A DNA stretch of 64,000 nucleotides from Megasphaera micronuciformis F0359 (GCF_000165735.1 NZ_GL538191.1:1-64000), one strand, 5' to 3'; positions 5,656-24,988 are shown, counted from the stretch's first letter. The notes: generated by a model not told the origin, from the sequence alone. A program made the numbers and translations.

Positions 5656-6414
5656 TTATTTACGGTTTATAGACTGCCACAAGTCGACTGTATGGTCTTC
5701 CTGTTCGGTCGGTTCCGTAATATGTTTGTCTTTTACGACCTGTTTTGTCGTAAACCATACGCCTTCATTCATATAATGGCGCAGTTCTTCATTGGCTACA
5801 TGTTCCTGGTCTTCAACCATGACAGTGAGAATCGCATTTTCCAAAGCGGCTGCTTCTTCATCACTCTTTACGCCGCCTTCATCCTGCTGTTTTTTTGTAA
5901 TCTCAATAAGTCTGTCAGCCATACCGCGCATGACATTCCAGCCATAGCTGTTTGTATAGCCGTGCTTCATATCCGTACCCGTTTTCGGATCCTTACCGGG
6001 CATGGTTTCATAGTTGTATTCCTGAATACCGTCGTTTTCGGCATTCCAGTTCATTACGAATTCAAGACCGTGGACATACGAATAAATGTCTGTACGGAAA
6101 TAGTCGCCGTAATTGTTGACTCGATTGGATTCGAGCCATTTCTTTTCATTTTTTGTCAACTCTTTGCCTTCAGCCTGCTTTGCCTTTACTTCGGCAATAC
6201 GTGTTGTCGCATGTTGCCAAGCCTGTGCAAAAGCGTGTACCGAGTCCTTAACTTCCTGATTCGGAACCTTTACGAGTACGACTGTGCCGAGTTGCGGTGT
6301 CGTTTCGGGATTTTTACTAAGCAAGGGATCGTGCAATGCCTGTACGGATGTACCGGCAAAAGCCGTTCCTAAAACAAGTGCTGCCGTGAAAGCAGACAAG
6401 ATAGATTTTTTCAT
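5656..6414 (-). CDS. Secreted protein encoded directly behind TAA1 (candidate TAA partner)
   Basis: I do not recognise the family. The 252-residue protein starts with a clear Sec signal peptide (MKKSILSAFTAALVLGTAFAG, likely cut after residue 26), so it should be periplasmic or secreted. The mature part starts near DPLL, has VPNQEV at 50-55, is mostly polar and probably helical, and has NEELRHYMNEGVWF at 208-221. The secreted protein behind TAA2 (15898-16494) has the same three landmarks in the same order. The ATG follows GAGGAG at good spacing. An 88-base gap with a GC-rich hairpin separates it from the TAA1 stop, so it is probably co-transcribed. A role in TAA assembly, stability or wall contact is inference. 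Confidence 0.8.
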   Translation of the reverse strand: MKKSILSAFTAALVLGTAFAGTSVQALHDPLLSKNPETTPQLGTVVLVKVPNQEVKDSVHAFAQAWQHATTRIAEVKAKQAEGKELTKNEKKWLESNRVNNYGDYFRTDIYSYVHGLEFVMNWNAENDGIQEYNYETMPGKDPKTGTDMKHGYTNSYGWNVMRGMADRLIEITKKQQDEGGVKSDEEAAALENAILTVMVEDQEHVANEELRHYMNEGVWFTTKQVVKDKHITEPTEQEDHTVDLWQSINRK

Positions 6415-6461
6415 GTCTATACTCCTCTTCTTTAGTATCAAGTCTCAAGTTAACAGGCGAC

Positions 6462-6479
6462 GGGCCTCTTGCGAGGCCC
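6462..6479 (-). other. Intercistronic hairpin between TAA1 and its partner gene
   Basis: Perfect stem GGGCCTC/GAGGCCC with a GCAA tetraloop and no following U-tract. It is more likely an mRNA-processing or stabilising hairpin, or a leaky stop, than a full terminator. An equivalent hairpin sits behind TAA2. Confidence 0.6.
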
Positions 6480-6502
6480 TACCTGTCATAAAAGCCGCTG
6501 AA

Positions 6503-9500
6503 TTACATGCCGAGTTTCGCCATTAACATAGCGATATTCTTCTTCATTTCCGCATTTTCGCTCTTCAAATCGGCTACTTCACCCTTCAAGCCCTGATTTT
6601 CTTCTTTCACTGCCGCCATTTCCTGTTGTAATGCGTAAGCCGAGCTGATCGGGCCGCGACGATAGCGGTCGGCAATAGCCGTTTCCGGATCGCGGTGACC
6701 GAGTTTCCACGTAACACCAGCATTAGCCATCATGTGGCTTGAACCGCCTGCCCAGGACATGCCTGCATGCATCATGAGCGATTCGTTTCTGTAATGAGCT
6801 ACCCCTAAAGCCAAAGCCGAGGTACCGCGATAGTTACCGTAGCCGGCCATAATCTGAGTCGGTTCCAACGGATCGTACTGAATCGGTTTCAGTGCGCCTA
6901 ATGCGGCTCCTAATGCACCGACTGTCTGGATTTCATCACCCAGGTTGTTGAGACGATTGTAAATAGTCGGATCCGGAGTACCGTTACCGCCTGCTACATG
7001 AAGGTCATAAGTAATTTCCTTCGTCGTCGTATTTTCGTTTCTCGTAACAGTTACGGATCCGTCATTGGATGTAACCTTCGTACGAGCGCCTTCCAACTGG
7101 CTGAGGTTTACGGCATCCGTCGAGCTTGTGCCCGGTGCCAGGTTGGTAATCTTGTTACCGCCCAGGCTCAAATTACCGTTATTAATCGTTACCGTGTTGG
7201 AGCCGAAGTCGATACGCGGAGCATTACTCGTTGTCGTACCGCTGCTGATGGACTTAATGTTCTGCAAGTTCGGGTTCAGAGCATACGTAATCTTCTGATC
7301 CGTATCGTTGCCGCTCATGGTTTCGCGTTTAACGACCATGTTGTCGCCTGCAACGAACTGCGTGCCCTTATTGACTACAGCTGCACCGGCAGCACTGCCC
7401 GATGCCACGGAACCCGTACCTGTAGCGGCCGTATCAACCTTCCGATTCGTAGCCGACAAATCTACGTCGACCTTGAAGATCTTCTTGCCTGTTGTATCCT
7501 TACGAGAGGAAACAGTCGTGTTATTACCGTTTTCCATGTCGATAAGGTTCGTAATAACGTTCTTGCCGTCGTTTGTAATATTTGACAAGTCGTTCTTGGC
7601 AATGCCTTCAATAACCGCTTTTTCATCAGCTACGTCGTCACCGTTGCCGTCCACATAGGTCATGGTTACCTTACCGTTGCTGTCAACAGTATAAGTTCCC
7701 GGCTTAATGTGGCGTTCAGCAGCCTTCAATTCGCTCTTGGCGTCTTTCAACTGGCTTACGTTAACAGCATCCGTATCGGCCGTACCTTTAGCAACGTTCG
7801 TAATCTTATTGCCGCCGTTGTTGAGGCCGTCAGATCCGAGATGAACATCCGTCGTCGTGCCGCCTGTCGGTGCCTTAATGGTAATACCGCCGTTGTTAAC
7901 CGTCGTATCACCCATCTTGACACTGCCGCCGGCCGTCAAATCAAGGTCCTTGGACAGCTGTACTTTAAGCTTGCCGTTTACGTTATTGACGCCGATATTG
8001 TTATCCGTAAGCTTCGTCTTATCAGCACCGCCGACAATGTCGACAACCGTATTGAGTTTCTTGCTGATAACCTTCGAAGAATCCGTCTGGCCGTCGTCAC
8101 CGGCAAACTTCATGCCGTCGTCAAGTGTTGCTACCTGATGGTCTTTATTGTTCGTTTCGTCATGGTATACGATACGCGTCGTGTTCGTGCCGTCAAGACC
8201 CTTAGCTCCGTCTTTACCTTGAATGGTAATGCCGTCGCGGCCGTTTGTGCCGTTCAAGCCGATGGAGCCGTCCTTGCCGTTAATCACAACTGCCGAACCG
8301 TCTGCACCCTTAACGCCTACCTTACCGTCTTTTCCCGGCGTTCCCGGTTTACCTACTTCGATTTCGTCGCTCAGGCCGTACTTAATAACCGTATTGCCTG
8401 CACTGTCGTTCGTCTGGGTAATGGTGACGTTCTTTCCTGCCTGGAATTCAACAGCCTTGCTGTCCGTAATATCCTGAGTCGTATCACCCGAGTGTGTACC
8501 TTCGCCTGCAGAAGACTTAGCTACCCACTTGCTCATGCCGCTTGCCGGTGTGAAGCTGCTCAAGTCGACTACCGCCGTCTTTCCGGCTACGTCGTTTCCG
8601 TTACCGTCTACGTAAGTAAGAGTTACCTTACCGGCTGTATTCGGCGTATACGTACCCGGTTTGATGTGAAGTTCATCTTCCAGGTTCGCTACCTTATGCG
8701 TTACCGTAGAGCCCGGTGTGGCACCCGGCGTCGTATCCGGCGTCGTGTACGTAATGCGGTCGCCTGCGTAGTTAATCGTCGTGTGGTTACCTACAGGATC
8801 GCCCAACTGGATTGTCTTCGTTTCTACCGTATTCAAGCCTTTTACAGTCTTGTTCAGCTTAATCGTCAACGTATCCGTGCCGTCTGCTACCACTGCGATA
8901 TTGCCTGCCGCGCTGTCGAAGGCATTCGCTTCCGCTTCCGTTACGCCTTCACCCTTTACCTTAACCAAGCTGTTGAGCTTGTGTTTGTTTTCCGTAGACG
9001 TGTTGTTACCCGTAAAGCGTAAGCCGTCGTCCAGTGTTGCTACTTCATGCTTACCCGTATGGTCTTCATATACGACACGCGTGGTTGTCGTTCCGGGAGC
9101 ACCGTTTACACCGGGCTGACCTTTTTCAACATGAATGTCTACACGACTCGTACCGTTAATACCGTCCACACCGTCTTTACCATTAATGCCAATAGTACCG
9201 TCTTTGCCGTTTTTACCCGTAACGGTAATCGTTTCGGTCTTCAGGTCTTTATCGAGCTTCACGTCAATCGTCGTGTTGCCGCTTGCATCCTGGTCGATGA
9301 ACGTCTTGATGTTCGAACCGTCATAGTTCGTGTCGGCCTTCGTGCCCGCACCTTGTACCTTAACCGTCGATCCGAGCTTGTTCGTCTTCACGCCGCCCGA
9401 GTTGGCGTCAAACTTAAGACCCTTGTCCGTTAAGCCGTCGGCCGTGTTCTTCAAGTCCGATACGTTAACGGCACTGTTCGGGTTGTTCGTATTAGCCGCG

Positions 9501-12500
9501 TCGAGTTTATCCAGGAACGTAGCTCCCGTCTGGTTGGAGATCGAGCTTGCTACATTGTTCAGACGCATCGGAGCCGTCGTCGAGTTGTTGCCGTCGTTCA
9601 TGGACGCAATGACATCCGACTTCGCTACCAAGTTGCCTTGTCCTTCTGCTTTATCATCGTAGAAGTTGCCGTCGTTATGCAGATATACCTTCGTGCCGTC
9701 CGCCTTCGTGTACGTTACGGGAAGTTGTGCGTTGTTTACGACCTTCTGCGAGTTGACTGCCAAGTCATACTTGTGGTCCGGTGACGTACCGTTATCCGTT
9801 ACTTTGACCGTACCGTCTGTCGATTCAACAATCGTATTCGTGCCGCTGCCGCCTGTGGACAGATCGGAGAAGTCGATGACCGCCTTCGTGTCGCTTACAG
9901 CCGTGCCGTTTCCGTCGTTATATACCAACGTAACTTTCTTCGTCGATGCATCGTACTTGTAAACGGCATCCGTACCCGTCGTCTGCGTCGTTTCCGTCGA
10001 GCCTGTCGGTACGTTTGTCGGACGAATGTGGCGTTCTTCCGCCTTTAACTTATAAAGCTGCGAGCCGTTTACGGCTTCTGTCGACGTGCTGCTGATTTCA
10101 CCCGGAGATACGTTGGTAATCTTGTTACCGCCCATGCTCAGGTTGCCGCCGTTAATAACCACCGCCGGCGTATTGCTTGCGCCGCCCGGAGTGGTGTTAA
10201 GCGTAATCGTCGTGCCGCCGTTTTTAATGGTATCAATATCTTTCAGGTTCTTGGAAAGCTGTACTTTGAGCTTGCCGTTACCGTCGTTGTTAACACCGAT
10301 GTTGCCGTCCGTTAAATTCGTAGCGTCCGCTCCGCCGATGATATCGAGCGTTTCGTTGAGCTTCTTATTAACGACTTTGGTCTTATCCGTACCCTGAGCG
10401 TCATCGCCTGCATACTTCATGCCGTCGTTCAGTGTTGCCACTTCTTCTTTGCTGCCGTCCGGCTTTTCGTATACAACGCGAGTCGTCGTCGTTCCCGGTG
10501 CTCCGTCTACGCCCGGCTTGCCGTCACGAGTTACCGTAATGGTCGTCGTTTGTCCATCCGCACCGTTAATACCGATCTTGCCGTCTTTGCCGTCTTTACC
10601 CGTTGCCGTAATCGTATCCGTTTCCAGGTTTTTATCGAGCTTTACATCAATGGTCGTATTACCGACGCTGTCTTGATTAATGATGGTTTTAACGTTCTTG
10701 CCGCTGTATTCCGTATCGGCTTTAGCACCTTCGCCTTGAACCTTAACCGTAGAACCGAGCTTGTTCGTCTTTACGCCGCCCGAGTTGGCATCGAATTTGA
10801 GACCCTTTTCCGTCAAGCCGTCTGCCGTATTCTTTAAGTCCGTTACGTTGACCGCTGCATTTTGCGTCTTCGTATCGCCTGCCGCCGCATCGAGTTTATC
10901 GAGGTACGTCGGCGACGTCACGCCCGGAGTCGTATGGTTGGAAATAGCGCTGCCCACGTTATTGACGATCATAGTACCGCCCGTCGTGGCTCCGCTCGGA
11001 TCCTTAAAGGAAGCAATAACGTTGGAATTATTTACTTCCGTGCCGCCCGTCGCAGACGTATAGAACTTACCGTCGTCGTGGAGGTATACCTTGTTGCCGT
11101 CCTTATCCGTATAAACTACGGGGCTTGTCGTGCTGACCGTATAGGTCTTTTGTCCCGTCGTCGCATCGGATGTAGACGTAACCGTTACGTTATCACCGGC
11201 TTTAACAATAGTACCGAGGCCTGTAATCGTCTTTTTACCGTCATTGGTAATATTGGTTAAACTCGTATTAGCCAAGTCCGAGTCGTTAAATTTCAATGTA
11301 ATTTTTGAATCTTTCGTACCGTCATCGGCTGCTACGGTGCTGATACGGCCGGTTCCTTCAACCTTCAGAGAACCGTCGTGAACGAGGAAGTCCGATTTTC
11401 CCGTATTGCCTTTTACAATCACACCGACATTCTTCAACTGAGCCACGTTGACGGCATCATAGTCGTCGGAACCGCCGGCTACGTTGATGATTTGGCGTTT
11501 TTCTATGTCATTGCCGACAGAAACGGCACCTTGAGTCGCGCTTGCTGCAAATACGGTCGGATTGTATTTACGGTTATGAATAACCGCTCCGTTTGCATAA
11601 GCCGCATCATAAGCATCCGATTTGGGATCCGTTGTAGCTCTGGAAGAATCTGCACCCGAACCGATAGCAACACCGCCTCTCACGGTCGTCTGTGCGCCCG
11701 TACCGATAGCCGTCGCATCATACGCATTCGAAACCCGTGCACCCCAGCCCATAGCCGTAGACCGCACGCTGTCCGTACCCGATACATTAGCCGTTCTGCC
11801 GATAGCTACGGACTCTCTGGCTTCCGTATACGCACCGTGACCGATAACCGTACTGTCTGAAGCACCTTGTCTTGCCTGAGCACCCTGACCGATAACCGTC
11901 GAATAATGAGTGTTCTTCCCTGCCGAGCTGTCTTTACCGATAGCCACCGTCTCGTTGGACTGTTCGCTTACAGTCGCATTGGTACCGATAGCCAACGTAT
12001 CGCCTGCATTATATGTATCGGTGGCTGTATTTGTACCGTCTCCCGAATGAATAGTCGACGTTTCCGTATTGTAGCCGCTCGCACCTACAGCACCGCCCGT
12101 ACCGGAATAGGAATAAGTCGACGTAGCATCCTGAGCCTTTGTATTAGCTTTCCTGCCGATAGCCATGGAATTTGAAGCAGAAGCCTCAGCCGCACCGCCA
12201 ATAGCATAGGCAGTCTCGGCTGTTGCGTGTGCCGAGAAACCAATGGCATAGGCTCCTTTCGCAGTGGCCCTTGTATCATAACCCATAGCATAAGCACCAT
12301 TTCCTGAAGCCTGTCCCCTGTCACCCAATGCAACTGAACGAACTTCAGACGCTGTAGCTCGATAGCCTATTGCCGCAGACTGTGCCCCCGATGCGGTCAC
12401 TTGATCACCAATAGCAATAGCACTTGTATTGGTCGCGTTTGTTTGAAACCCTATTGCCGTAGACTGTGCTCCCGACGCAGTATTCTGACTACCAACGGCC

Positions 12501-13603
12501 GTAGCATCATTTATTATCCCCTTATTTTTAAAACCGATTGCTGTAGATTGGAAGCCTGTCGCTTCCGATTGATCACCGAAAGCGGATGCACTCTGATCCT
12601 TTGCTTTCGCCGCATTACCGACAGCCGTTGCACCAGTACCCGTCGCTTCCGATTGATCACCGAAAGCGGATGCACTCTGATCCTTTGCTTTCGCCGCATT
12701 ACCGACAGCCGTTGCACCAGTACCCGTCGCTTCTGTCGACGTACCCATAGCCGTAGAATTTTCACCCGACGCGGCAGCTCTGAAACCTATAGCATTGGAA
12801 TTATTTCCCGAAGCCGTAACTGTATTGCCGATAGCTGTAGCATTCTGAGCTGTACCTTTCGCCACATTCCCGACAGCTACAGCCCAGCGACCGGTGGCTT
12901 CACTATTAACACCTAATGCCGCAGAACCGTCGCCACTTGCTGTATTATGATTACCGACACTGGTTGCCATATTCCCTGTCGCCTTATTTTCCGCACCAAG
13001 CGCCGTCGCATAATCCGTAGTAGCGCTAGAACGACTGCCGACAGTTGTCGCATATTCCCCTGTCGAAATTTTGTTGCCACTAGGTACTTCGGCATTTACA
13101 TAGTCACCGATAGCAATAGAAGCATGCTTATCCGCATAAGCCACATTCCCCATCGCCACGGATGCATCCCCTGAAGCCTTTGCCCAAGCACCGATAGCCG
13201 TAGACGCACCGCCTGTCGCTTCATTTTGGTTACCGATTGCCAATGCAGAATTTCTCGTCGCCTTATTGCCCGCACCGATAGCCGTACGACCGTCTTGACC
13301 GGGAGTTGCTGCCGTGACATCATTTTGATAGCCGATGGCAATATAGTTAACGGCATTCGCATCGCTAGTCCCAGTATTCTGCGGTTTTCCGTAAGCTGAA
13401 ATATTGACCTTACTTCCCGACGTATCAACAGTCCCTTGATGGGGAGCCGCCTGGACTCCATCCATGCCAACGCCGGCCATCATGAGGCCTGCCAAAACGG
13501 TTGCCAAAACCTTTTTCTTGCCGCCGTTTGACTTGGCATATTCCGACACAACTACATAACACTGTTTAGACTTACTCCAAACAATCTTAAAAACCTTATT
13601 CAT
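6503..13603 (-). CDS. Trimeric autotransporter adhesin TAA1 (YadA-like, 2366 aa)
   Basis: Giant surface adhesin (type Vc secretion) that should form a homotrimer. It begins with an extended signal peptide region ([19 protein letters not shown]) and a hydrophobic signal to about residue 52. A long YadA-type beta-roll head of AIGxxxxAxGxxSxAxG repeats runs to about residue 700. A neck ([15 protein letters not shown]) follows, then a stalk with several DAVNVSQL necks and G-x-y runs such as [13 protein letters not shown]. The barrel anchor is near 2230-2302 ([24 protein letters not shown] to GVTWKLG). Unlike YadA, the chain continues 64 residues past the barrel: [12 protein letters not shown] and a heptad coil ending [13 protein letters not shown], expected in the periplasm. 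The receptor is unknown. Confidence 0.95.
   Translation of the reverse strand: [2366 protein letters not shown]
12558..12725 (-). repeat. Two exact 84-bp direct repeats in the TAA1 head
   Basis: Two consecutive 84-base units appear identical by eye. Each encodes 28 residues, two head-repeat turns including [19 protein letters not shown]. The lack of synonymous divergence suggests a recent duplication. Confidence 0.85.
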
Positions 13604-13742
13604 TCTTCACATTACCTTCCTTTCCAAAAAATAACGATACAAACATACAATTGTCGATGTTACAGGTTTTTAACCTTTCGTTCCGTCATGTAAACGAAAC
13701 TTTCACCATGAGTTCAAATTTTTAATAACTTACGTGCATGTT

Positions 13743-13771
13743 ATTTTACAAAACTTTTTCTATTCTTTCAA
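13743..13771 (-). promoter_or_regulatory. Candidate TAA1 promoter
   Basis: TTGAAA and TAAAAT with a 17-base spacer on the minus strand. It predicts a 5' leader of about 130 bases. Confidence 0.5.
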
Positions 13772-13803
13772 GGTAGTAATCGTTTTCCATTAGTAATTTA
13801 TGA

Positions 13804-13818
13804 ATGAGTTGAACTCAT
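13804..13818. promoter_or_regulatory. Palindrome ATGAGTT-G-AACTCAT upstream of the TAA1 promoter
   Basis: Perfect 7-base inverted repeat about one helical turn or two upstream of the proposed -35. A further copy of ATGAGTTCAA occurs at about 13708, between the promoter and the gene. This is operator-like, but no regulator is known. Confidence 0.35.
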
Positions 13819-13875
13819 GTTTTTTGATGAGGTTATCAAATTTATTCATGATGACAAGCTCTTGATTTTTTTTAT

Positions 13876-13922
13876 AAAAAAAGACCTTCCCAATATGCGA
13901 TAACACTGCATACAGTAAGGTC
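13876..13922 (-). terminator. Orphan terminator-like hairpin, possible 3' end of a small RNA
   Basis: Stem GACCTT/AAGGTC with an inner TATGC/GCATA helix, followed by seven T on the minus strand. No protein gene precedes it: the MFS gene already ends at its own terminator 290 bases upstream. It may end a small RNA from about 13930-14200 or act as a leader attenuator of TAA1. Confidence 0.5.
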
Positions 13923-14212
13923 GGAGCTTGTTGTCCGCGTTTCTCCCACCCCCCGGAACTTCTTCTCACCAAATACGGACTCCATATTCTTTTGTGTTAT
14001 TATTTATTTTTCGTGCATACTCTTTCTCCCCATACCACCCTCTCATATGCTATACACATTTTTATACTAACGTCATTCTTAAACGGAATATAATTTGTAT
14101 TTCGCTAAGATTTTACCATTAATTTATTTCCGTTTATTTTTCATTCTGTTACAGTTTTATAACATTCGATTATCCGTTACGTTTCATTCCGGGTTACTTG
14201 GTTATAATGCTG

Positions 14213-14252
14213 TAAAAAACGGGAACCCCTGTATCATACAGGAGTTCCCGTT
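14213..14252 (-). terminator. Terminator of the MFS transporter gene
   Basis: Stem ACGGGAAC-CCTGTAT / ATACAGG-GTTCCCGT followed by TTTTT on the minus strand. Confidence 0.88.
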
Positions 14253-14279
14253 CCGGATTACATGAATTCTTCGTCTTGT

Positions 14280-15593
14280 TTACGACAAACTTTCCAATTC
14301 TTTTCGCTTCGTTTCCCTTCCCAAGGTAAGGACAATAAAGGAAATAAGTACAAATACACCGGCAAAGATATAGAATATATGTCCCATATCCCACGCATCG
14401 GTCAAAAGGGCTCCTACAAGAAGAGGTGCCACCATACCGCCTACACGACCGAATCCCGTAGCCCAGCCGCAACCCAGACCGCGAATCTCCGTCGGATAGA
14501 GTTCGGGTGTATAAGTATATATAACACCCCAGGCACCGAGATTGAAGAAAGACATGGTCGCTCCCCAACAAAGCAGTGCCGTAACAGTCTCAGCGTGTCC
14601 GAAAAAGTAGCTGGCTATGCCGCTGCCCAACAAAAACAGGGACAAGGTATAGCGCCGTCCCAGTCGATCGACGAGCCAAGCCGCCGCTGCATATCCCGGC
14701 AACTGTGACAAAGTCATGACGAGGACATATTCAAAAGTTTTGACTACCGTAAATCCTTGTTTAAATACAAGGGAAGGAAGCCACATAAAGACACCGTAAT
14801 AGCTGAAAACGATGCCGAACCACACGAGCCAGAGCATGACGGTTCGTTTAATAAAACGGCTTGTCCAAAGAGACGTAAAGGAGCCTTTAGTTTCTTCCGC
14901 CACATCCTTCTCCGTCACTTCAAGGGGACGAGGTTCCATATGGCAACGTTCTTCCAAGGAAGAAACGATTTTTCGGGCTTCTTCTATTTTTCCCTTTTTT
15001 AAAAGATAGCGAACCGATTCGGGTAAGTGCATACGAATAACCATGGTATATAAGGCCGGTAAGGCTCCGATGAGAAAGGCCGTACGCCATCCCGTCACGG
15101 GAATAATAAAGTAGGCGATAAGGGCTGCCAACAACCAGCCGACGGCCCAGAAGCTTTCCAAGAGTACCATAAAACGACCTCTGGCACGCCCCGGAACGTA
15201 TTCGGTCACCAGCGTAGCCGCTACGGGCAACTCACCGCCCAGTCCCAGCCCTACCAAAAAGCGAAAAAGAACGAGTAACTCATAATTCGGTGCTACGGCA
15301 CACAATCCCGTAGCCAAGCTGTACAACACTATGGTGACGGAAAATACGGTTTTCCGCCCCACTCTGTCGGCTAAGGTTCCTGCCGCTACGGCTCCCAGGG
15401 CCATGCCGACAAGGCCGATACTACCGAGCATCCCCGCCTGAGTAGCCGAAAGCCCCCATTCTTTGATAAGCAAGGGCAATACAAACGCAATAAGCCCCGT
15501 ATCCATGGAATCAAAAACCCAACCGATTCCTGCAACCACCAACAGCTTATAGTGAAACGATGAAACGGGTAACGCATTTAAACGTTCCAGCAC
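14280..15593 (-). CDS. MFS transporter, NiaP/sugar-porter-like
   Basis: Inner-membrane major facilitator of 437 residues with about 12 hydrophobic segments. The N-terminal half has GWVFDSMDTGLIAF in helix 1 and the loop 2-3 signature GTLADRVGRKTVF. The second half has WLVDRLGRRYTLS and ends in a short charged tail. The helix-1 sequence with paired acidic residues resembles niacin permeases (NiaP) and aromatic-acid symporters, so a small organic acid or vitamin is a fair guess, but the substrate cannot be read. The start is GTG with GAGGAGGA 8 bases upstream; no better ATG is in frame. It lies between the two adhesin units with its own terminator, so a functional link to them is doubtful. Confidence 0.88.
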   Translation of the reverse strand: MLERLNALPVSSFHYKLLVVAGIGWVFDSMDTGLIAFVLPLLIKEWGLSATQAGMLGSIGLVGMALGAVAAGTLADRVGRKTVFSVTIVLYSLATGLCAVAPNYELLVLFRFLVGLGLGGELPVAATLVTEYVPGRARGRFMVLLESFWAVGWLLAALIAYFIIPVTGWRTAFLIGALPALYTMVIRMHLPESVRYLLKKGKIEEARKIVSSLEERCHMEPRPLEVTEKDVAEETKGSFTSLWTSRFIKRTVMLWLVWFGIVFSYYGVFMWLPSLVFKQGFTVVKTFEYVLVMTLSQLPGYAAAAWLVDRLGRRYTLSLFLLGSGIASYFFGHAETVTALLCWGATMSFFNLGAWGVIYTYTPELYPTEIRGLGCGWATGFGRVGGMVAPLLVGALLTDAWDMGHIFYIFAGVFVLISFIVLTLGRETKRKELESLS

Positions 15594-15897
15594 AATATCA
15601 TCCTCCTCATATTATGTATATAATTGTGCAAATACGCATTTTAAATTTTAAGCCCCATTTATATATATTCCTCATCCATTTTTATAAAAGTAGGACAGCC
15701 TCTATCTTCTATCCCCTTTTATTTTATCATCACTATAAATGCTACTTTATAAGTATAGCATAGTTATTCTTATAAACCTTATAAAACTTTCACATACCCA
15801 TGCCGACACCTATTACTTTACTTTATACACTTTTAAAGCAATATAAAAAGAAGCCTCTTTAATAAGAAGCTCCCTCTTATATTACATTATATAAATA
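15594..15897. other. Gene-free AT-rich region upstream of the MFS gene
   Basis: About 300 bases. It holds the terminator of the TAA2-associated gene at its right end in minus-strand terms. The MFS promoter presumably lies here, but I see no convincing -35/-10 pair. Small ORFs are not supported. Confidence 0.5.
15845..15871 (-). terminator. Terminator closing the TAA2 unit
   Basis: Minus-strand 8-base-pair stem AGCTTCTT/AAAGAGGCT (one G-T pair) with a 4-base loop, followed by TCTTTTT. It lies 27 bases past the stop at 15898. Confidence 0.75.
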
Positions 15898-16494
15898 TTA
15901 TAATTGTTGACGTAAATTTACGATACGTCCTTCTTCATAGGGCGAAATTAATTGTCTATCCGCATCCATACCGGCTTGCAGTGAAAAGAGTACCGTTTCA
16001 TTTAAATAGAACCGTAATTCATTGTTTTCGACTTGTCGTGTATTGTCAGCCAAAATATTCAGGAAGTCTTGTTCAAACGTTGCCTTGTTCTCCGGCGTTA
16101 CATAGGAATGAGTGGCAAAAAATGTTTCATAGTCATGATAAAGCTTATAGACCGCCTGTTTGCCGTACGCTGCTTCCTTCCAGCCATGACTGTCACGATA
16201 CAGATTGACGCGAACGTACATATAATGCAGAACCTGATCGTTATACCAACCCTGTTCGGATTTTACGCCCACACCGACTTCCTTGACCAACTGCCCGCCT
16301 CTTTGTGCCTGTAGGGTCGTAAATTGTTGCAACGCCTTATACACTTCCGTATTCGGAACGACGATAGCCGTCATTTCCTGAACTGCCGTCAAATCCCGAC
16401 TCGACGGTGCCGGTTGGGATAAGGGGTCGACGGCAGCATAAGCCGTAGCGCTGACAGACAAGGCCAAGGCTGCAGTAATCAGTTTTTTCAACAT
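15898..16494 (-). CDS. Secreted protein encoded directly behind TAA2 (candidate TAA partner)
   Basis: Unrecognised 198-residue protein with a Sec signal peptide (MLKKLITAALALSVSATAYA, cut near residue 20-21). The mature part starts AVDPLSQ, has VPNTEV at 46-51 and NNELRFYLNETVLF at 157-170. These match, in order and spacing from the ends, the DPLL, VPNQEV and NEELRHYMNEGVWF landmarks of the protein behind TAA1. That protein has about 50 more residues in the middle. The rest is polar and probably helical. The ATG follows AAGGAGG. It is separated from TAA2 by 58 bases containing a GC-rich hairpin. I infer a periplasmic partner of the TAA; there is no direct evidence of mechanism. Confidence 0.8.
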   Translation of the reverse strand: MLKKLITAALALSVSATAYAAVDPLSQPAPSSRDLTAVQEMTAIVVPNTEVYKALQQFTTLQAQRGGQLVKEVGVGVKSEQGWYNDQVLHYMYVRVNLYRDSHGWKEAAYGKQAVYKLYHDYETFFATHSYVTPENKATFEQDFLNILADNTRQVENNELRFYLNETVLFSLQAGMDADRQLISPYEEGRIVNLRQQL

Positions 16495-16515
16495 AGCATC
16501 CTCCTTACGAGGTTT

Positions 16516-16537
16516 GCCCCCGGCCGAAGCCGGGAGC
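16516..16537 (-). other. Intercistronic hairpin between TAA2 and its partner gene
   Basis: Stem CCCGGC/GCCGGG with a very stable TTCG tetraloop and an outer GC pair set, with no U-tract. Same place and type as the hairpin behind TAA1. Confidence 0.65.
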
Positions 16538-16552
16538 CCCCGTTTCTCATAC

Positions 16553-19500
16553 TTACTTCAGACCCGCTTTTTCCATTAAGAGGGCAATTTGAGCCTTCAT
16601 TTCTTCATTATCGGCCTGAACCTTCCGATACGCTTCAGTCAGTTCTTCTTCATGGTGTTTAATACGGGCGTTTTCAGCCTTCAGTGCCGTTACTTCATCT
16701 TGCATTACGTATACGGAGCTGATAGGACCGGCTTTGTAGCGATCGGGAATGGCTTTCTTTTCAGCCGATCGACCGAACTTGTACGTTACGCCCGCATTGA
16801 CGGCGTTATCCTGTTGTCCGAAGGAGGCACCCACGTGGAGCAACGTATTTTCATTCGTGTAATGGGCCAAGCCGAGTGCTACGGACGTACTGTTACCGTA
16901 CGAACCGACGGCCGCCATAACCTGTGTAGGTGCAATAGGATCATAAGCCAAGGGGTGTAATCCCGCCAAGGCTGCCGATGCGGAACCGGCATTATCCACC
17001 TTAACCTGTACGCGACGAAGCTGGCTTACATTGACCGCATCGTCATCTAAAGTGCCGGCTGCCACTCCGTGAAGCTGTTGTCCGCCGTTATTAAGACCCG
17101 TTCCCGTCAGTCTGACCCCTGTTGTCGAAGTGCCGACAGGTGTGAAGGTAATACCGCTACCGCCCATGGTCATGGACGATGTCACGGTCGGAGCCCCCGG
17201 TCGACGATCTTCACCGAGAACCGGTCCGTTTGTCATCTCTCTCGGCGTTGACTCGGGAGCCGTAGTCGACGTGGTAAAGGTAATAGTACCGTCACCCATA
17301 TTGATGTCCTTAGCCAACTTAATATTGTAGCCGTCTTGAGCGGAATTCGATACTACGGCAATGTTGCCGTCCGTCAAGCGCGACAGATTCTTCGCATTGC
17401 CGCGCAGATTTAACGTATCTCCGAGGCCGACCGAAACCTTACCCCAGTCGCCTTGGAAAACACGACCGCCGGAAATCTTATCACTGACGACCTTGAGCTG
17501 ATCTTCCGTTGCCGCTCTGCCGCTTGTAATATTCGGGTTCTTTACGTCCCACGTCGTATTGCTTAAGCCGCCTACATAGCTGCCGCCGCCTTGTCGACCT
17601 ATACTTACTCCGCCGACACCGATATTGCCGTTTACACCGTCAATACTTACAGCTCCGGCACCGCTACCGATGGTCAATTTGTCCGAAAGGCCTACGACAA
17701 CCTTACCGCCGCTTACGGACGTGCGTACGTTCGTACCGTCGCCGCCGATAGCCACCGTTTCGCCCAAGCCTTTCATAATCGACTGGCCGTCATCAGCAGT
17801 CACGCCGAATCCTTTACGGCTTATACTGTCCGCCATATCATGAAGTTGGCCGCCGTTAACGGCATCCGTACTGCCGGCACCGATACGTCCTGCCGCTACA
17901 TTCGTAATAACCTTATTTCCCGCATCGATACCGTTTTTCGTAACCGACGGACCACCGTTAATAACCAGTCCGTCAGAGGTTACGGTCGTATCACCGGTCG
18001 TCACCTTATTGGCCGTAACCGTGTCAACGCGCACATCCTTATTCAGAGATACGCGAACCTTACCGTTTTCAACGGATGTGGAAATATTGGCTCCGTCGCC
18101 GCCGATAGCGACGGTTTCGCCCAAGTTTTTCTTAACCGACTTACCGTCATCAGCCGTCACACCGAAGGCTCCCTGTTTGATCCCGTCTACAGCCTTGTCA
18201 AGCTGCCCCTTATTGACAGCATCATGTTCGTCTTCGCCGTCTTTAAGGTTCGTAATGCGATTGTTCGTTACGTTAATATTGCCGCCCGTAATCGTTACGG
18301 CATCTTCACAATGGTCTTTCAAGGTTATCTTCGTATCGCCGTTAGAAATAGAGGTAATGCCTCTCAAGTCCTTCGCCAACCGAACCTTCAGGTTATCCGT
18401 TCCGTCAGAGACGACACCGATATTATCCTCTGTCGTAAGCAGAGTTCTGTTCGTAATACCGCCGATAACGGAAACCTTGTTGTTCAATTTTTTAATAATA
18501 TCCGTTCCCGTATCGCCGCCGAAGACCATGCCGTCTTCCATCGTTGCAACTTGATGTTCTCCCGTCTTGTCTTCATAAACGATACGCGTAATTCCGTCCG
18601 TACCGTCTACACCTTTTTCACCCTTAATTCCCTTGGAGACATCATCATAACCGTTCTTCACAGTCAGGTCGATACCGTTAGTACCGTCCTTACCGTTGGT
18701 TCCCGCCGGCCCGGTTAAGCCGATATGGCCCACACCGTCTTTACCGTATACGGTTACGGCATCCTTACCGTCCTTACCGCTCACACCGATCTTGCCGTCT
18801 TTTCCGTCTTTACCTACTTGAACGGATTCGGTAACAAGGTTTTTATCCATCATGACGGAAATATTGCCGTTTGCATCTTTTACGGTCTTAATATTTTCAC
18901 TGCTATATTCGGAATCTACCTTCGTGCCGCCGCCAACGATACCCAAGGTTTCACCGAGGTTTTTGTGAATTACCTGCCCGTCGTTACCGACGAAGTTCAT
19001 GCCCTTGGCCGTCAGGTTGTTCGTCACATTCGTCGTCGTATTCGTTACGGCGTTATTTACCTGATCCGTCAGGTAATCTACATTTACGACTTCGCTTCCG
19101 TCGTTACCCGTCGCATAGGCTACGTTGGTAATATGCGTGCCGCCCGTCTTGTTAACGTACGTGCTGCCCGCCATGGTAACGGAGTTTTTATTCACCACGC
19201 CGCCTGTTACATCATACTGGACGGAACGGTTCGACAAGTTGTCTACAGCCGTCTTGGAAGCCACATCCTTTATCGTAACGGTTTCTTTTACGCCTGCATG
19301 CTTCTTATCTTCTACCGTCAAGTTCACCTTGCCGTCAGCATCGACAGAGTAGGCACCGTCGGCACTTCCGTCATTAGCTACTAAACGGAAGTCGGACATA
19401 TTACCGCTCACGTTATTAATAGCTTCATTTACGACTTTCAGCTGATCTTCCGTAGCCGCTCTGCCTGAAACAGCCGTACCGTTCCACGTCTTGTTATCAA

Positions 19501-22500
19501 GGCCCGTCACATAGTTACCCGTCACGCCTCCTGAGACTTGCGTACCCGTCTTCACATTGCCGGCCGTTACGCTCGTAAGTCCCGTTACTTCTTTGGCAAG
19601 CTGTACCTTTAAGACTCCGCCTATGTTGTTGACGCCGATATTTCCGTCAGACAAAGCTCCCGCAGCACCGCCGCGAACGTCCAATCGTTCGTTAAGTTTC
19701 TTGGAAATCACCGTACCGTTATCTCCGGCAAACTTCATGCCGTCGTCCAGGGTTGCCACTTCGTGATTTCCCGTCTTGTCTTCATAAACAATGCGAGTAA
19801 CTCCGTCCGTACCGTTGACACCCGGCTGGCCTTTTTCAACATGAATATCTACACGGTTCGTACCGTTAATACCGTCTACGCCGTCTTTACCGTTAATGCC
19901 GATGATACCGTCCTTGCCGTCTTTACCGACTTGAACGGATTCGGTAACAAGGTTTTTATCCATCATGACGGAAATATTGCCGTTTGCATCTTTTACGGTC
20001 TTAATATTTTCACCGCTATACTCGGAATCGATCTTCGTGCCGCCGCCGACGATACCCAAGGTTTCGCCGAGATTTTTATGAATTACCTGCCCGTCGTTAC
20101 CGACGAAGTTCATGCCCTTGGCCGTCAGGTTGTTCGTCACATTCGTCGTCGTATTCGTTACGGCGTTATTTACCTGATCCGTCAGGTAATCTACATTTAC
20201 GACTTCGCTTCCGTCGTTACCCGTCGCATAGGCTACGTTGGTAATATGCGTGCCGCCCGTCTTGTTAACGTACGTGCTGCCCGCCATGGTGACAGAGTTT
20301 TTATTCACCACGCCGCCTGTTACATCGTACTGTACGGAACGGTTCGACAAGTTGTCTACAGCCGTCTTGGAAGCCACATTCTTAATCGTAACGGTTTCTT
20401 TTACGCCTGCGTGCTTCTTATCTTCTACCGTCAAGTTTACCTTGCCGTCGGCATCGACACTATACGCCTTATCGGCCGTGTTGTTTTCCACCAGACGGTA
20501 ATCTGTCGCACCGGCTCCTTGCGTTGAAATGGTATCTTGCAAGACTTTCAACTGATCTTCCGTAGCCGCTCTGCCTGAAACAGCCGTACCGTTCCACGTC
20601 TTGTTATCAAGGCCCGTCACGTAGTTACCCGTCACGCCGCCTGAGACTTGCGTACCCGCCTTCACATTGCCGGCTGTTACGCTCGTAAGTCCCGTGACTT
20701 CTTTGGCAAGCTGTACCTTTAAGACTCCGCCTATGTTGTTGACGCCGATATTTCCGTCAGACAAAGCTCCCGCAGCACCGCCGCGAACGTCCAATCGTTC
20801 GTTAAGTTTCTTGGAAATCACCGTACCGTTATCTCCGGCAAACTTCATGCCGTCGTCCAGGGTTGCCACTTCGTGGTTGCCCGTCTTGTCTTCGTAAACA
20901 ATGCGAGTAACACCGTCCGTACCGTTGACACCCGGCTGACCTTTTTCAACATGAATGTCTACACGACTCGTACCGTTAATACCGTCTACGCCGTCTTTAC
21001 CGTTAATGCCGATGATGCCGTCCTTACCGTCTTTACCCGTAACAGTTACCGTTTCAGCCGTCACGTCTTTGCCGAGGGCTACATCAATAACCGTATCGGC
21101 ACCTGTCTTTTTAATGGACGTCTTAATATTCGTGCCGTCACCTTTAACGGTCACCTTAGAACCCAGGGCACTCGTCTGTTCACCGCCCACATTGGCATCG
21201 AAACGAAGTCCCTTGTTCGTAACTTCTTCCACCTTCGAGTCAAGCTGCCCCTTATTGACCGCATCATGACTGTCTACGGCGTTTTGGACGTTTGTGATCC
21301 GATTATTCGAGACGCTGACGTTTCCGCCCGTAATTGTTACGCCGTTGCCGCCTACACTCGTATTGTTGTTTAAGACAATACTCGTATTGCCGTTCGATAT
21401 GGACGTAATGTCCGTCAAATTCTTCGCTAAGGCAATAGAAATTTTACCGTTATCGTTAGCCGTTTGAATATTCGAATTTTTTCCGACAATGCCCAAGGTA
21501 GATCCCAAGTCCTTGTGAATAGATTGCCCGTCGTTACCGACGAAGTTCATGCCCTTGGCCGTCAGGTTGTTCGTCACATTCGTCGTCGTATTCGTTACGG
21601 CGTTATTTACCTGATCCGTCAGGTAATCTACATTTACGACTTCGCTTCCGTCGTTACCCGTCGCATAGGCTACGTTGGTAATATGCGTGCCGCCCGTCTT
21701 GTTAACGTACGTGCTGCCCGCCATGGTGACAGAGTTTTTATTCACCACGCCGCCTGTTACATCGTACTGTACGGAACGGTTCGACAAGTTGTCTACAGCC
21801 GTCTTGGACGCTACATCCTTAATCGTAACCGTCTGCTTCATTCCTGCATGATTCTTGTCTTCTACCGTCAAGTTCACCTTGCCGTCGGCATCGACGCTAT
21901 ACGCCTTATCGGCTGTATTGTTTTCCACCAAACGGTAATCCGTCGCACCGGCGCCTTGAGTCGAAATGGTATCTTGCAAGACTTTCAGCTGATCTTCCGT
22001 AGCCGCTCTGCCTGAAACAGCCGTACCGTTCCACGTCTTGTTATCAAGGCCCGTCACGTAGTTACCCGTCACGCCGCCAGATACTTGCGTACCCGTCTTC
22101 ACATTGCCGGCCGTTACGCTCGTAAGTCCCGTTACTTCTTTGGCAAGCTGTACCTTCAAGACTCCGCCGACGTTGTTGACGCCGATGTTGCCGTCAGACA
22201 AAGCTCCTGCAGCACCGCCGCGGACATCCAACCGTTCGTTGAGTTTCTTGGAAATCACCGTACCGTTATCTCCGGCAAACTTCATGCCGTCGTCCAGGGT
22301 TGCCACTTCGTGATTCCCCGTCTTATCTTCATAAACAATGCGAGTAACGCCGTCCGTACCGTTGACACCCGGCTGACCTTTTTCAACATGAATGTCTACA
22401 CGACTCGTACCGTTAATACCGTCTACGCCGTCTTTACCGTTAATGCCGATGGTGCCGTCTTTGCCGTTTTTGCCCGTAACGGTTACCGTTTCAGCTGTCA

Positions 22501-24988
22501 CGTCTTTGCCGAGAGCGACGTCAATAACCGTGTCGGCACCCGTCTTCTTAATAGACGTCTTAATATTCGTGCCGTCGCCTTTAACGGTCACCTTCGACCC
22601 CAAGGCACTCGTCTGTTCACCGCCCACATTGGCATCGAAACGAAGTCCCTTGTTCGTAACTTCTTCCACCTTCGAGTCAAGCTGCCCCTTATTGACCGCA
22701 TCATGACTGTCTACGGCGTTTTGGACGTTCGTGATTCGGTTATTCGATACGCTGACATTACCGCCCGTAATGGTCACGCCGTTGCCGCCTACACTCGTAT
22801 TGTTGTTCAAGACAATACTCGTATTGCCGTTCGATACGGATGTAATGTCCGTCAAATTCTTCGCTAAGGCAATAGAAATTTTACCGTTATCGTTAGCCGT
22901 TTGAATATTCGAATTTTTTCCGACAATGCCCAAGGTCGAGCCCAAATCCTTGTGAATAGATTGTCCGTCATTACCGACAAAGTTCATACCTTTGGCCGTC
23001 AGGTTGTTCGTAATATTCGTCGTCGTATTCGTTACGGCATTATTTACCTGATCCGTCAGGTAATCTACATTTACGACTTCGCTTCCGTCGTTACCCGTCG
23101 CATAGGCTACGTTGGTAATATGCGTGCCGCCCGTCTTGTTAACGTACGTGCTGCCCGCCATGGTAACGGAGTTTTTATTCACCACGCCGTTTGAAATATC
23201 GTAGTGAACGGCGTCTTCATCGTGACCGCCCTTTGCGGAAATACGGATTTGCCCGTTTGCCGACTTTTCGATGGTCACGTTTTCACCGTTTACAAGATTG
23301 ACCTTACCCCGGCTGGGCGGTACATCTTTCCCGTTAGCCTGTAGCGTCCAAATATCCGTCTTCTTCGCCAAGTCGCAGTCTTTAAAGCCGATCTCATAAT
23401 GTCTGTTTCCGTTTGCATCGATACCGCCGTTATCTTTAACGGTAATACGACTCCCCGGAACGGCGGACACAGTCGTATCTCTACCGTTTACAGTATAAGT
23501 TTTTGTTCCGTTAGCAACAGTTGATGTAACGGTCGTATTCGAACCGCCTTTCACTACGACGGCCTTCTGAGCTTCGTTGTGAATAACCGTTTTGCCTTCA
23601 TTGGTAATGTTGGATAAGTTAATGTTAGCCGACGCATCAATCTTTTGACGAACCGCATCGGTTAACCCGACAGTAACCGTTCCGCTTCCTGCCTGAGTGG
23701 TCACATACTGATTATCACCTTGAATTTTTAAAGTCTGACTATCCAATAAGACATCCGTATGACCCGTATTGGCACCCACTTTGAGGTTCACATTGCGCAA
23801 TTGCGCTACATTGACAGCATCCGTATCCTTGCTGCCGGCTGCTACATGGGTAATCTGTCTTGTATGGCCTTCATTACCGACGGAAACGGCTGCATATTCG
23901 GACCGTAAAGCAGAGCCGCCAAGTCCGGTATAACCGTTTGTCCGCCCGTCTTCGGTTTTAACATTATAGCCCCATTCACCGCTTGTTCTGTCGGCCCTCG
24001 AGTTGGAGCCCAAGGCTACGCCGTTTACCGTCGGTGCCGAAGCGCTTTTACCGATAGCCACGGCATTATCGACACACGCTTTGGCATCGGTACCGTAAGC
24101 AATAGAGCTGGCACCGCCGGCCGTACTGCGACTGCCGAAGGCTATACTGTCTACGCCCGTAGCGTGAGCCGTCTGCCCCAAAGCAATGGCACGATCGGCC
24201 GTAGCCTGCGTATTGTTTACACCGTCATAGGCGGCAATGGGAGTTCCCTTGGAATCATATTGTGTCTTCGGTGCTATGGTGCCGATGGCGATGGACTGAT
24301 TGCCCGTAGCCGTAGACGAATGTCCCATAGCCAGGCTGGCTTCCCCCTTAGCTACGGCAGCCGTCCCGATAGCCGCCGCATACTTACCGCTTGCATAAGA
24401 CTGACGCATCATGGCCAGAGAGTTAAATTCCGCAGCCTTGGCCCCGGCACCGATGGCGACAGCGGCAATCTTTTCGGCAGACGCATAGGGACCTACGGCA
24501 ACGGCCAGCGAACGAGCCCGCGAATAATCACCGAGTGCCGTACCGGATGCCGTCTGTACCTCAGGGTCATAAGCGTTGGCGGCGTTACCGAGTGCAATGC
24601 CGTACAAATGCGTCCCCGTATATAATTGATACCGACCTGTGCCGTCCCACTGTAAGATCCCCGTGTTGTCATAGGCCTTATTACCCGGCGTCCCGTAGTC
24701 GTACATCTTCGTCGCCGTACCGCCTTCCAAGGCAGACATCCACCCGGATGATAAGCGAATGCCCGCACTTCTTGCAGGGTTGGGATCGGTCGGTCCCGGT
24801 TCGTCAGTGACGGCAGCAAAGACGGGTACACAACCGGTTAAAAATAAGACCGCCAATGTTGAAATAAGTGTGTATCCTCTGTCTTTGGATGTTTCGGACT
24901 TAGTTTTTGAATGAGACTTTGCTATTTCCGAAGTAACAACATAACAGTTTCTGGCTTTGTTCCAAATAACCTTAAAAATCTTATTCAT
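16553..24988 (-). CDS. Trimeric autotransporter adhesin TAA2 (YadA-like, 2811 aa)
   Basis: Giant surface adhesin with the same plan as TAA1 but a shorter head and longer stalk. The extended signal region (MNKIFKVIWNKARNCYVVT) leads to a hydrophobic stretch, residues 40-60, that contains LTGC at 50-53. Beta-roll head repeats run to about residue 340, then the neck HVAAGSKDTDAVNVAQL. The stalk of about 2200 residues is built largely from tandem modules. Each has VVNKNSVTMAGSTYVNKTGG, DGSEVVNVDYL, G-x-y runs and NKTWNGTAVSGRAATEDQL. The barrel (LAGLHPLAYDPIAPTQVMAAVGSYG to GVTYKFGRS) is followed by about 70 residues: DRYKAGPISSVY and a coil ending IALLMEKAGLK. Translation may be coupled to an upstream 20-codon ORF. 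Confidence 0.95.
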   Translation of the reverse strand: MNKIFKVIWNKARNCYVVTSEIAKSHSKTKSETSKDRGYTLISTLAVLFLTGCVPVFAAVTDEPGPTDPNPARSAGIRLSSGWMSALEGGTATKMYDYGTPGNKAYDNTGILQWDGTGRYQLYTGTHLYGIALGNAANAYDPEVQTASGTALGDYSRARSLAVAVGPYASAEKIAAVAIGAGAKAAEFNSLAMMRQSYASGKYAAAIGTAAVAKGEASLAMGHSSTATGNQSIAIGTIAPKTQYDSKGTPIAAYDGVNNTQATADRAIALGQTAHATGVDSIAFGSRSTAGGASSIAYGTDAKACVDNAVAIGKSASAPTVNGVALGSNSRADRTSGEWGYNVKTEDGRTNGYTGLGGSALRSEYAAVSVGNEGHTRQITHVAAGSKDTDAVNVAQLRNVNLKVGANTGHTDVLLDSQTLKIQGDNQYVTTQAGSGTVTVGLTDAVRQKIDASANINLSNITNEGKTVIHNEAQKAVVVKGGSNTTVTSTVANGTKTYTVNGRDTTVSAVPGSRITVKDNGGIDANGNRHYEIGFKDCDLAKKTDIWTLQANGKDVPPSRGKVNLVNGENVTIEKSANGQIRISAKGGHDEDAVHYDISNGVVNKNSVTMAGSTYVNKTGGTHITNVAYATGNDGSEVVNVDYLTDQVNNAVTNTTTNITNNLTAKGMNFVGNDGQSIHKDLGSTLGIVGKNSNIQTANDNGKISIALAKNLTDITSVSNGNTSIVLNNNTSVGGNGVTITGGNVSVSNNRITNVQNAVDSHDAVNKGQLDSKVEEVTNKGLRFDANVGGEQTSALGSKVTVKGDGTNIKTSIKKTGADTVIDVALGKDVTAETVTVTGKNGKDGTIGINGKDGVDGINGTSRVDIHVEKGQPGVNGTDGVTRIVYEDKTGNHEVATLDDGMKFAGDNGTVISKKLNERLDVRGGAAGALSDGNIGVNNVGGVLKVQLAKEVTGLTSVTAGNVKTGTQVSGGVTGNYVTGLDNKTWNGTAVSGRAATEDQLKVLQDTISTQGAGATDYRLVENNTADKAYSVDADGKVNLTVEDKNHAGMKQTVTIKDVASKTAVDNLSNRSVQYDVTGGVVNKNSVTMAGSTYVNKTGGTHITNVAYATGNDGSEVVNVDYLTDQVNNAVTNTTTNVTNNLTAKGMNFVGNDGQSIHKDLGSTLGIVGKNSNIQTANDNGKISIALAKNLTDITSISNGNTSIVLNNNTSVGGNGVTITGGNVSVSNNRITNVQNAVDSHDAVNKGQLDSKVEEVTNKGLRFDANVGGEQTSALGSKVTVKGDGTNIKTSIKKTGADTVIDVALGKDVTAETVTVTGKDGKDGIIGINGKDGVDGINGTSRVDIHVEKGQPGVNGTDGVTRIVYEDKTGNHEVATLDDGMKFAGDNGTVISKKLNERLDVRGGAAGALSDGNIGVNNIGGVLKVQLAKEVTGLTSVTAGNVKAGTQVSGGVTGNYVTGLDNKTWNGTAVSGRAATEDQLKVLQDTISTQGAGATDYRLVENNTADKAYSVDADGKVNLTVEDKKHAGVKETVTIKNVASKTAVDNLSNRSVQYDVTGGVVNKNSVTMAGSTYVNKTGGTHITNVAYATGNDGSEVVNVDYLTDQVNNAVTNTTTNVTNNLTAKGMNFVGNDGQVIHKNLGETLGIVGGGTKIDSEYSGENIKTVKDANGNISVMMDKNLVTESVQVGKDGKDGIIGINGKDGVDGINGTNRVDIHVEKGQPGVNGTDGVTRIVYEDKTGNHEVATLDDGMKFAGDNGTVISKKLNERLDVRGGAAGALSDGNIGVNNIGGVLKVQLAKEVTGLTSVTAGNVKTGTQVSGGVTGNYVTGLDNKTWNGTAVSGRAATEDQLKVVNEAINNVSGNMSDFRLVANDGSADGAYSVDADGKVNLTVEDKKHAGVKETVTIKDVASKTAVDNLSNRSVQYDVTGGVVNKNSVTMAGSTYVNKTGGTHITNVAYATGNDGSEVVNVDYLTDQVNNAVTNTTTNVTNNLTAKGMNFVGNDGQVIHKNLGETLGIVGGGTKVDSEYSSENIKTVKDANGNISVMMDKNLVTESVQVGKDGKDGKIGVSGKDGKDAVTVYGKDGVGHIGLTGPAGTNGKDGTNGIDLTVKNGYDDVSKGIKGEKGVDGTDGITRIVYEDKTGEHQVATMEDGMVFGGDTGTDIIKKLNNKVSVIGGITNRTLLTTEDNIGVVSDGTDNLKVRLAKDLRGITSISNGDTKITLKDHCEDAVTITGGNINVTNNRITNLKDGEDEHDAVNKGQLDKAVDGIKQGAFGVTADDGKSVKKNLGETVAIGGDGANISTSVENGKVRVSLNKDVRVDTVTANKVTTGDTTVTSDGLVINGGPSVTKNGIDAGNKVITNVAAGRIGAGSTDAVNGGQLHDMADSISRKGFGVTADDGQSIMKGLGETVAIGGDGTNVRTSVSGGKVVVGLSDKLTIGSGAGAVSIDGVNGNIGVGGVSIGRQGGGSYVGGLSNTTWDVKNPNITSGRAATEDQLKVVSDKISGGRVFQGDWGKVSVGLGDTLNLRGNAKNLSRLTDGNIAVVSNSAQDGYNIKLAKDINMGDGTITFTTSTTAPESTPREMTNGPVLGEDRRPGAPTVTSSMTMGGSGITFTPVGTSTTGVRLTGTGLNNGGQQLHGVAAGTLDDDAVNVSQLRRVQVKVDNAGSASAALAGLHPLAYDPIAPTQVMAAVGSYGNSTSVALGLAHYTNENTLLHVGASFGQQDNAVNAGVTYKFGRSAEKKAIPDRYKAGPISSVYVMQDEVTALKAENARIKHHEEELTEAYRKVQADNEEMKAQIALLMEKAGLK
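19182..23169 (-). repeat. Tandem stalk repeats of TAA2 (1437, 1437 and 1113 bp)
   Basis: The landmark encoding NKNSVTMAGS recurs at 23169, 21732, 20295 and 19182. The first two intervals are both 1437 bases (479 residues) and nearly identical in sequence. The third is 1113 bases and carries a different, shorter segment after GNDGQ (VIHKNLGETLGIVGGG). All are multiples of three, so unit loss or gain keeps the frame. Confidence 0.9.

Follow-up and report, generated by a model that had tools for sequence, protein, structure and literature searches.

The question raised by this locus is what is encoded by the small genes that follow two very large TAA adhesin genes in the oral anaerobe Megasphaera micronuciformis F0359, and whether their products serve the adhesins behind which they stand. 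We analyzed a stretch of 64,000 nucleotides (GCF_000165735.1 NZ_GL538191.1:1-64000), referred to at its full length as the window, in which an initial annotation had placed one such gene directly behind TAA1 and another directly behind TAA2. That arrangement holds, but on the minus strand; the plus-strand reading of 5656-6414 and 15898-16494 has stops. Adhesin and partner share a strand within each pair, with 88 bp between TAA stop and partner start for TAA1 and partner A, and 58 bp for TAA2 and partner B. The features of the two pairs are as follows:

5656..6414, minus strand: partner A gene, 252 aa, signal peptide, predicted helical bundle, A-type (tree support 96/84)
5668..5688, minus strand: C-terminal short motif of partner A, VDLWQSI, of the type [VI][DN]L[RW]xAI
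6451..6488, minus strand: hairpin in the gap from TAA1 to partner A, -26.3 kcal/mol, intergenic z -3.2, T tract absent, 36 nt to the ATG
6503..13603, minus strand: TAA1, 2366 aa, with ESPR, YadA head, stalk and anchor, and post-barrel tail (Pfam)
6506..6697, minus strand: TAA1 post-barrel GPISS tail, RYR subtype, HRDPETAIADRYRRGPISSAYALQQEM... and coiled coil, 64 aa
15898..16494, minus strand: partner B gene, 198 aa, signal peptide, predicted helical bundle, B-type (tree)
15901..15921, minus strand: C-terminal short motif of partner B, VNLRQQL
16507..16543, minus strand: hairpin in the gap from TAA2 to partner B, -26.9 kcal/mol, intergenic z -3.2, 12 nt to the ATG, abutting AAGGAGGA
16553..24988, minus strand: TAA2, 2811 aa, with ESPR, YadA head, stalk and anchor, and post-barrel tail (Pfam)
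16556..16771, minus strand: TAA2 post-barrel GPISS tail, RYK subtype, RSAEKKAIPDRYKAGPISSVYVMQDEV... and coiled coil, 72 aa

TAA1 and TAA2 are complete YadA-type TAAs, with all YadA membership features above the Pfam cut-off. After the barrel each carries a tail of the GPISS type, consisting of Y[RK]xGPISSxY and a coiled coil; all 29 sequences compared keep the G, P, S, S, Y and Q of the motif Y[RK]xGPISSxYxxQ unchanged. Domains placed after the barrel are periplasmic by established TAA topology, and classical TAAs are without a post-barrel tail. An MFS transporter-like gene (14280-15593, minus strand) lies between the two TAA modules, with a GC content of 0.44 versus mostly ~0.47-0.52 in the modules. 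The window also contains TAA3 (61822-63849, minus strand; its open frame runs on toward the window end), a cis-tethered counterpart to the GPISS-type TAAs, which bears a post-barrel SLH domain (Pfam 2.6e-12) and has no partner gene.

Judged by sequence comparison, partners A and B are true homologues. Aligned along their length they are 25% identical (BLASTP E 9e-9, single comparison), an HMM built from A-type members only detects B at E 1e-7 with its best non-family match at 1.5, the B-type HMM detects A at E 1.7e-18, and hhalign of the two subfamilies returns a probability of 99.4% (E 1.6e-21). Because BLASTP, cross-detecting subfamily HMMs and profile-profile comparison agree, the similarity is far above chance. 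Both proteins begin with a typical signal peptide, in keeping with the Sec export first attributed to them, and both are free of cysteine and therefore not lipoproteins. Searches of Pfam, NCBIfam and PDB sequences with A and B returned no credible family, OmpA included, and 38 homologues compared with Pfam gave no coherent match; scattered single-member Pfam matches (best 0.0011, DUF896) fell in a different family each and were treated as chance. AlphaFold2 models, based on alignments of 38 and 29 homologues, present A and B as helical bundles with short strands only (mean pLDDT 78 and 84, core blocks >90), so the comparison of predicted folds suggested at the outset yields the same kind of structure for both. 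Foldseek with both models found nothing at E<=0.001. Apolipophorin-like bundles topped the second-look structural matches of both models (Z 6.5-7.5), as is expected for any helical bundle, and were set aside.

Three sequence landmarks had been put forward as common to the two proteins. The C-terminal helix NELRxYxNExVxF (or NxELRxYxNExVxF) proves to be the signature of the whole family, its L and R being invariant and its E, Y and N nearly so among 38 members, and D-x-L is conserved as well, but “VPN” is peculiar to the window pair, most other members having VPS or VAS. Many members have [VI][DN]L[RW]xAI, the DLRxAI motif, once or twice at their C-terminal end; the motif is missing from tandem members in the genus g11 and from some B-type members. 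We searched for this motif in Veillonella parvula SKV38 as a possible shared envelope docking signal, and three of the six matches to the pattern genome-wide are the three partner genes of that strain.

A search of 380 Negativicutes genomes with a 38-member profile recovered 58 members in 23 genomes, chiefly Veillonella. The Veillonella family (in the GTDB sense) accounts for 55 of these, the window's genome for two, and G341 for one divergent copy; the named carriers are mainly Veillonella and include V. parvula SKV38, V. rogosae, V. infantium, V. tobetsuensis, V. denticariosi and V. caviae. Of the 15 genomes that represent the window's genus, 14 are negative and a single one has partners, and A or B alone as query matched only the window among 17 genomes of its own family. 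The initial annotation had envisaged a general Negativicutes factor, an idea that does not survive a distribution confined almost wholly to the Veillonella family. A first search with a two-sequence profile had split the B-type matches in two pieces and gave doubtful matches in G015 and G005, which were discarded.

Members of the family are found directly behind a TAA in 40 of 58 cases and second in tandem in five more, such that linkage to TAA genes extends beyond the window (45/58) and only 13 homologues are unpaired, far from the preponderance away from TAAs that would have spoken against it. This linkage is real, but what it follows is one tail type, GPISS, rather than TAAs as a class. Among the 55 partners of the Veillonella family, a GPISS TAA immediately precedes 38, and five occupy the second place of a tandem; both window partners likewise stand directly behind GPISS-tail TAAs. 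Of 353 TAA anchors in that family, 118 are of the GPISS type, and a partner directly follows 38 of these 118 versus none of the ~235 others, SLH-tailed ones included (Fisher p 8e-21, a value inflated by shared ancestry). At the level of genomes, GPISS TAAs occur in 36 of 380, and these include 22 of the 23 partner-positive genomes (Fisher p 3e-25, also inflated by shared ancestry). Dependence between tail and partner is one-way: the tail works without the partner, because 80 of the 118 GPISS TAAs have none directly behind them and 14 GPISS-positive genomes have none anywhere. The genomic evidence is strong for a real, previously uncharacterized, lineage-restricted and TAA-linked protein family, whose function we put forward as a hypothesis.

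The 13 homologues outside TAA pairs comprise six at a stand-alone locus in the Veillonella-related genus g11, three behind type Va monomeric autotransporters and four elsewhere; the 12 belonging to the Veillonella family divide into six, three and three. A stand-alone B-type homologue is present in every searched g11 genome (L136, L137, L139, L145, L146), in a neighborhood that is conserved and TAA-free in the cases inspected, and this copy may serve many of the partnerless GPISS TAAs in trans. The homologues behind type Va autotransporters, in three Veillonella genomes, are B-type (L112:5442-6026, L122:4237-4830, L176:2590-3168). In g11, two distinct A-type partners also occur in tandem behind a single GPISS TAA (L135:7378-9138, L140:6238-7905). 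The window's own genome encodes a further TAA on contig C13 (L147:7374-9083) with a GPISS tail of the RYK subtype and no partner gene 3' of it; it clusters with Veillonella TAAs and is followed by phosphate-transport-like genes. In SKV38 the partners lie between vtaC and FNLLGLLA_00040, behind FNLLGLLA_00041, and behind vtaF. On the chromosome of this strain, the three genes map near 56,903-57,547, 63,570-64,214 and 91,611-92,360. The TAA FNLLGLLA_00040-41 of this strain is split into two overlapping frames (L114 ~7835-7841; near 59,837 in SKV38), with its partner gene kept.

Phylogenetic trees split the partners into an A-type and a B-type, and each type of partner pairs with anchors of its own type, in the window and in Veillonella alike. 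The two pairs of the window, originally described as independent, are both real pairs, but they represent two old subfamilies that have separate tail subtypes and that occur together in Veillonella arrays. Among unique tails, 9 of 10 RYR tails and 14 of 49 RYK tails are paired. Across 33 non-redundant pairs, partner distance follows that of the tail most closely (Mantel r 0.93), then that of the barrel (0.82) and that of the 250 aa before the barrel (0.51), a gradient compatible with co-adaptation but not proof of it, because physical linkage in often-recombining arrays could give the same result. Tail specificity is a statistical pattern; tail binding and function are putative. TAA1 with A and TAA2 with B each nest with same-type Veillonella pairs in the partner tree and in the anchor-plus-tail tree, the anchor and tail of TAA2 falling among Veillonella B-type TAAs with support of 98/95. 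The partner modules probably came to this genome from the Veillonella lineage, most simply with each TAA-partner pair moving as a unit; the alternative is loss in other Megasphaera.

The layout of the pairs offers a further regularity. Gaps between TAA and partner range from 13 to ~270 bp, and folding of the gaps, sequence by sequence, places a stable GC-rich hairpin between the adhesin stop and the partner start in nearly all pairs, the exceptions being gaps of 13, 18 and 43 bp. The hairpin mostly ends 9-12 nt before the ATG in B-type pairs, at the Shine-Dalgarno sequence (1 nt in one Veillonella pair), and 31-36 nt before it in most A-type pairs; the window hairpins fit this rule (12 nt for B, 36 nt for A) despite differing stem sequences. 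In a covariation check of the A-type hairpin, RNAalifold recovered just four pairs owing to misaligned stems, and the hairpin is for this reason put forward on single-sequence folding. A T tract is usually absent, which hints that adhesin and partner share a transcript and that the partner cistron may be stabilized or translated separately.

Because the partner is tied to adhesins with one particular inner-side tail, this small secreted helical protein probably serves GPISS-tail adhesins as a dedicated helper in their construction or anchoring. More specifically, we lean toward a cis-encoded periplasmic accessory protein that would bind the GPISS tail and assist the assembly of the TAA or its retention in the outer membrane. 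TAA and partner would form one genetic module; the TAA would be anchored in the outer membrane, with its Y[RK]xGPISSxY segment and coiled coil returning into the periplasm, and the partner would be exported via Sec and presumably reside there in soluble form. Its all-helical bundle most likely binds the cognate GPISS tail, and once bound it may aid assembly of the giant trimer or keep it anchored when load is applied. Several points speak against such an accessory: the many GPISS TAAs and the 14 GPISS-positive genomes that do without a partner, the 13 unpaired homologues, the possibility that linkage explains the distance gradient, the lack of a recognizable peptidoglycan-binding domain in the partners, and the missing DLRxAI motif of the tandem and some B-type members.

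The lack of a known peptidoglycan-binding domain or fold match also weighs on a version in which the partner is itself a tether in trans, bridging the GPISS coiled-coil tail and peptidoglycan in place of the cis SLH link, so that the two tail types would be alternative anchoring solutions. Partners stand directly behind SLH-less tails only, TAA3 with its own SLH has none, and the DLRxAI motif is a candidate docking peptide; moreover, there is the example of Acinetobacter TpgA, which attaches to peptidoglycan as well as to its TAA (PMC8151025) and in simulations strengthens the membrane anchor of that TAA (PMC13082670). Many GPISS TAAs nevertheless do without an adjacent partner, and we regard a tether of this kind as unlikely. 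We are equally doubtful that the partner is a periplasmic chaperone that handles TAA chains or anchors in the unfolded state, ahead of BAM insertion or in the course of it, and stays outside the finished adhesin. Such a role could explain the three B-type homologues behind type Va autotransporters, which have no coiled-coil tail, and a stand-alone copy could act on several TAAs in trans. SadB sets a precedent, as an accessory protein that raises surface display of SadA (PMC3953254); partner divergence, however, tracks the post-barrel tail best, which points to a site on the mature tail, although linkage could explain this too. That the gene serves some other periplasmic purpose and is only carried along and copied with its TAA neighbors as the arrays recombine, as stand-alone homologues and the proposal of Bechon et al. 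that short similar ORFs ease duplication and deletion in the Veillonella cluster (PMC7549365) might suggest, is very improbable because of the tail selectivity: no partner follows the ~235 same-family TAAs of other tail types, and subtype concordance is kept across families and in pairs outside the main arrays.

The most economical reading is that the partner is a periplasmic accessory that would bind the GPISS tail of its own TAA, for assembly or anchoring. This reading could be extended, speculatively and with little confidence, to a scheme in which diderm Firmicutes fix their adhesins either by a cis SLH domain or by a GPISS tail clamped in trans by a helical partner, with A and B as mutually specific locks for sorting and regulating paralogous adhesins. 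The interpretation given in the initial annotation is partly supported: homology, TAA linkage, helical folds and distinctness from SadB and TpgA hold, and its “assembly factor or periplasmic link” describes roles that the partner may play.

The window TAAs are of the same kind as those of the Veillonella group, which carry a post-barrel SLH domain or coiled coil (Poppleton 2017, PMC5491611; Bechon 2020, PMC7549365). Bechon et al. stated in 2020 that the function of the coiled-coil tail was unknown and mentioned hypothetical short ORFs of the Veillonella array only as possible recombination aids (PMC7549365); the available portions of these two papers say nothing of the ORFs forming a family, of a link to a single tail type, or of the hairpin. 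Among the papers searched, none names the presumed partner locus tags, and the likely partner locus numbers are absent from an outer membrane proteome list of 78 proteins, which had been filtered by outer membrane prediction and so gives no information on a soluble protein. The coordinates of the SKV38 partners fall in locus-tag gaps of the table of Bechon et al. (00039; 00042-00043) and behind vtaF, and the delta-8 deletion therefore probably took out two partners. In array deletions like this published mutant, partner genes were probably lost along with the adhesins. For Veillonella coiled-coil tails there is now a possible binding partner, together with a conserved motif that can be mutated and identified loci in the genetically tractable V. 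parvula SKV38.

As an exported protein encoded in conserved adjacency to a TAA, the partner would belong with the cis-encoded TAA accessory proteins, and the expectation that it would differ from the known examples was borne out on every defining feature tested. SadB of Salmonella, encoded with SadA, is likewise a small exported protein encoded beside a TAA and thought to aid surface display, and it too has an autotransporter-unlinked paralogue, YajI (PMC3953254). SadB is, however, a trimeric inner-membrane lipoprotein with an Ig/MATH-like domain and the gene order sadBA, whereas the partner is a non-lipoprotein, predicted to be helical and encoded downstream of its TAA: the lipobox and lipid-anchored cysteine of SadB and YajI are absent from both window partners, their Ig/MATH-like beta fold is not seen in the AlphaFold2 models, and no sequence similarity to them was found in Pfam, NCBIfam or PDB sequences. 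TpgA of Acinetobacter Tol 5, the partner of AtaA, resembles what is proposed here in being periplasmic and co-transcribed with a TAA, and it touches the membrane anchor of that TAA through its N-terminal domain (PMC8151025, PMC13082670). TpgA binds peptidoglycan, whereas neither its OmpA-like domain (Pfam and NCBIfam for A and B, Pfam for the 38 homologues) nor another peptidoglycan-binding domain is recognizable in the partner. Unlike TpgA, the partner would act on the post-barrel tail, a feature that classical TAAs do not have. The list of known TAA accessory proteins is short, and SadB and TpgA have no sequence in common; a third type related to neither, if true, would suggest that such helpers have originated repeatedly.
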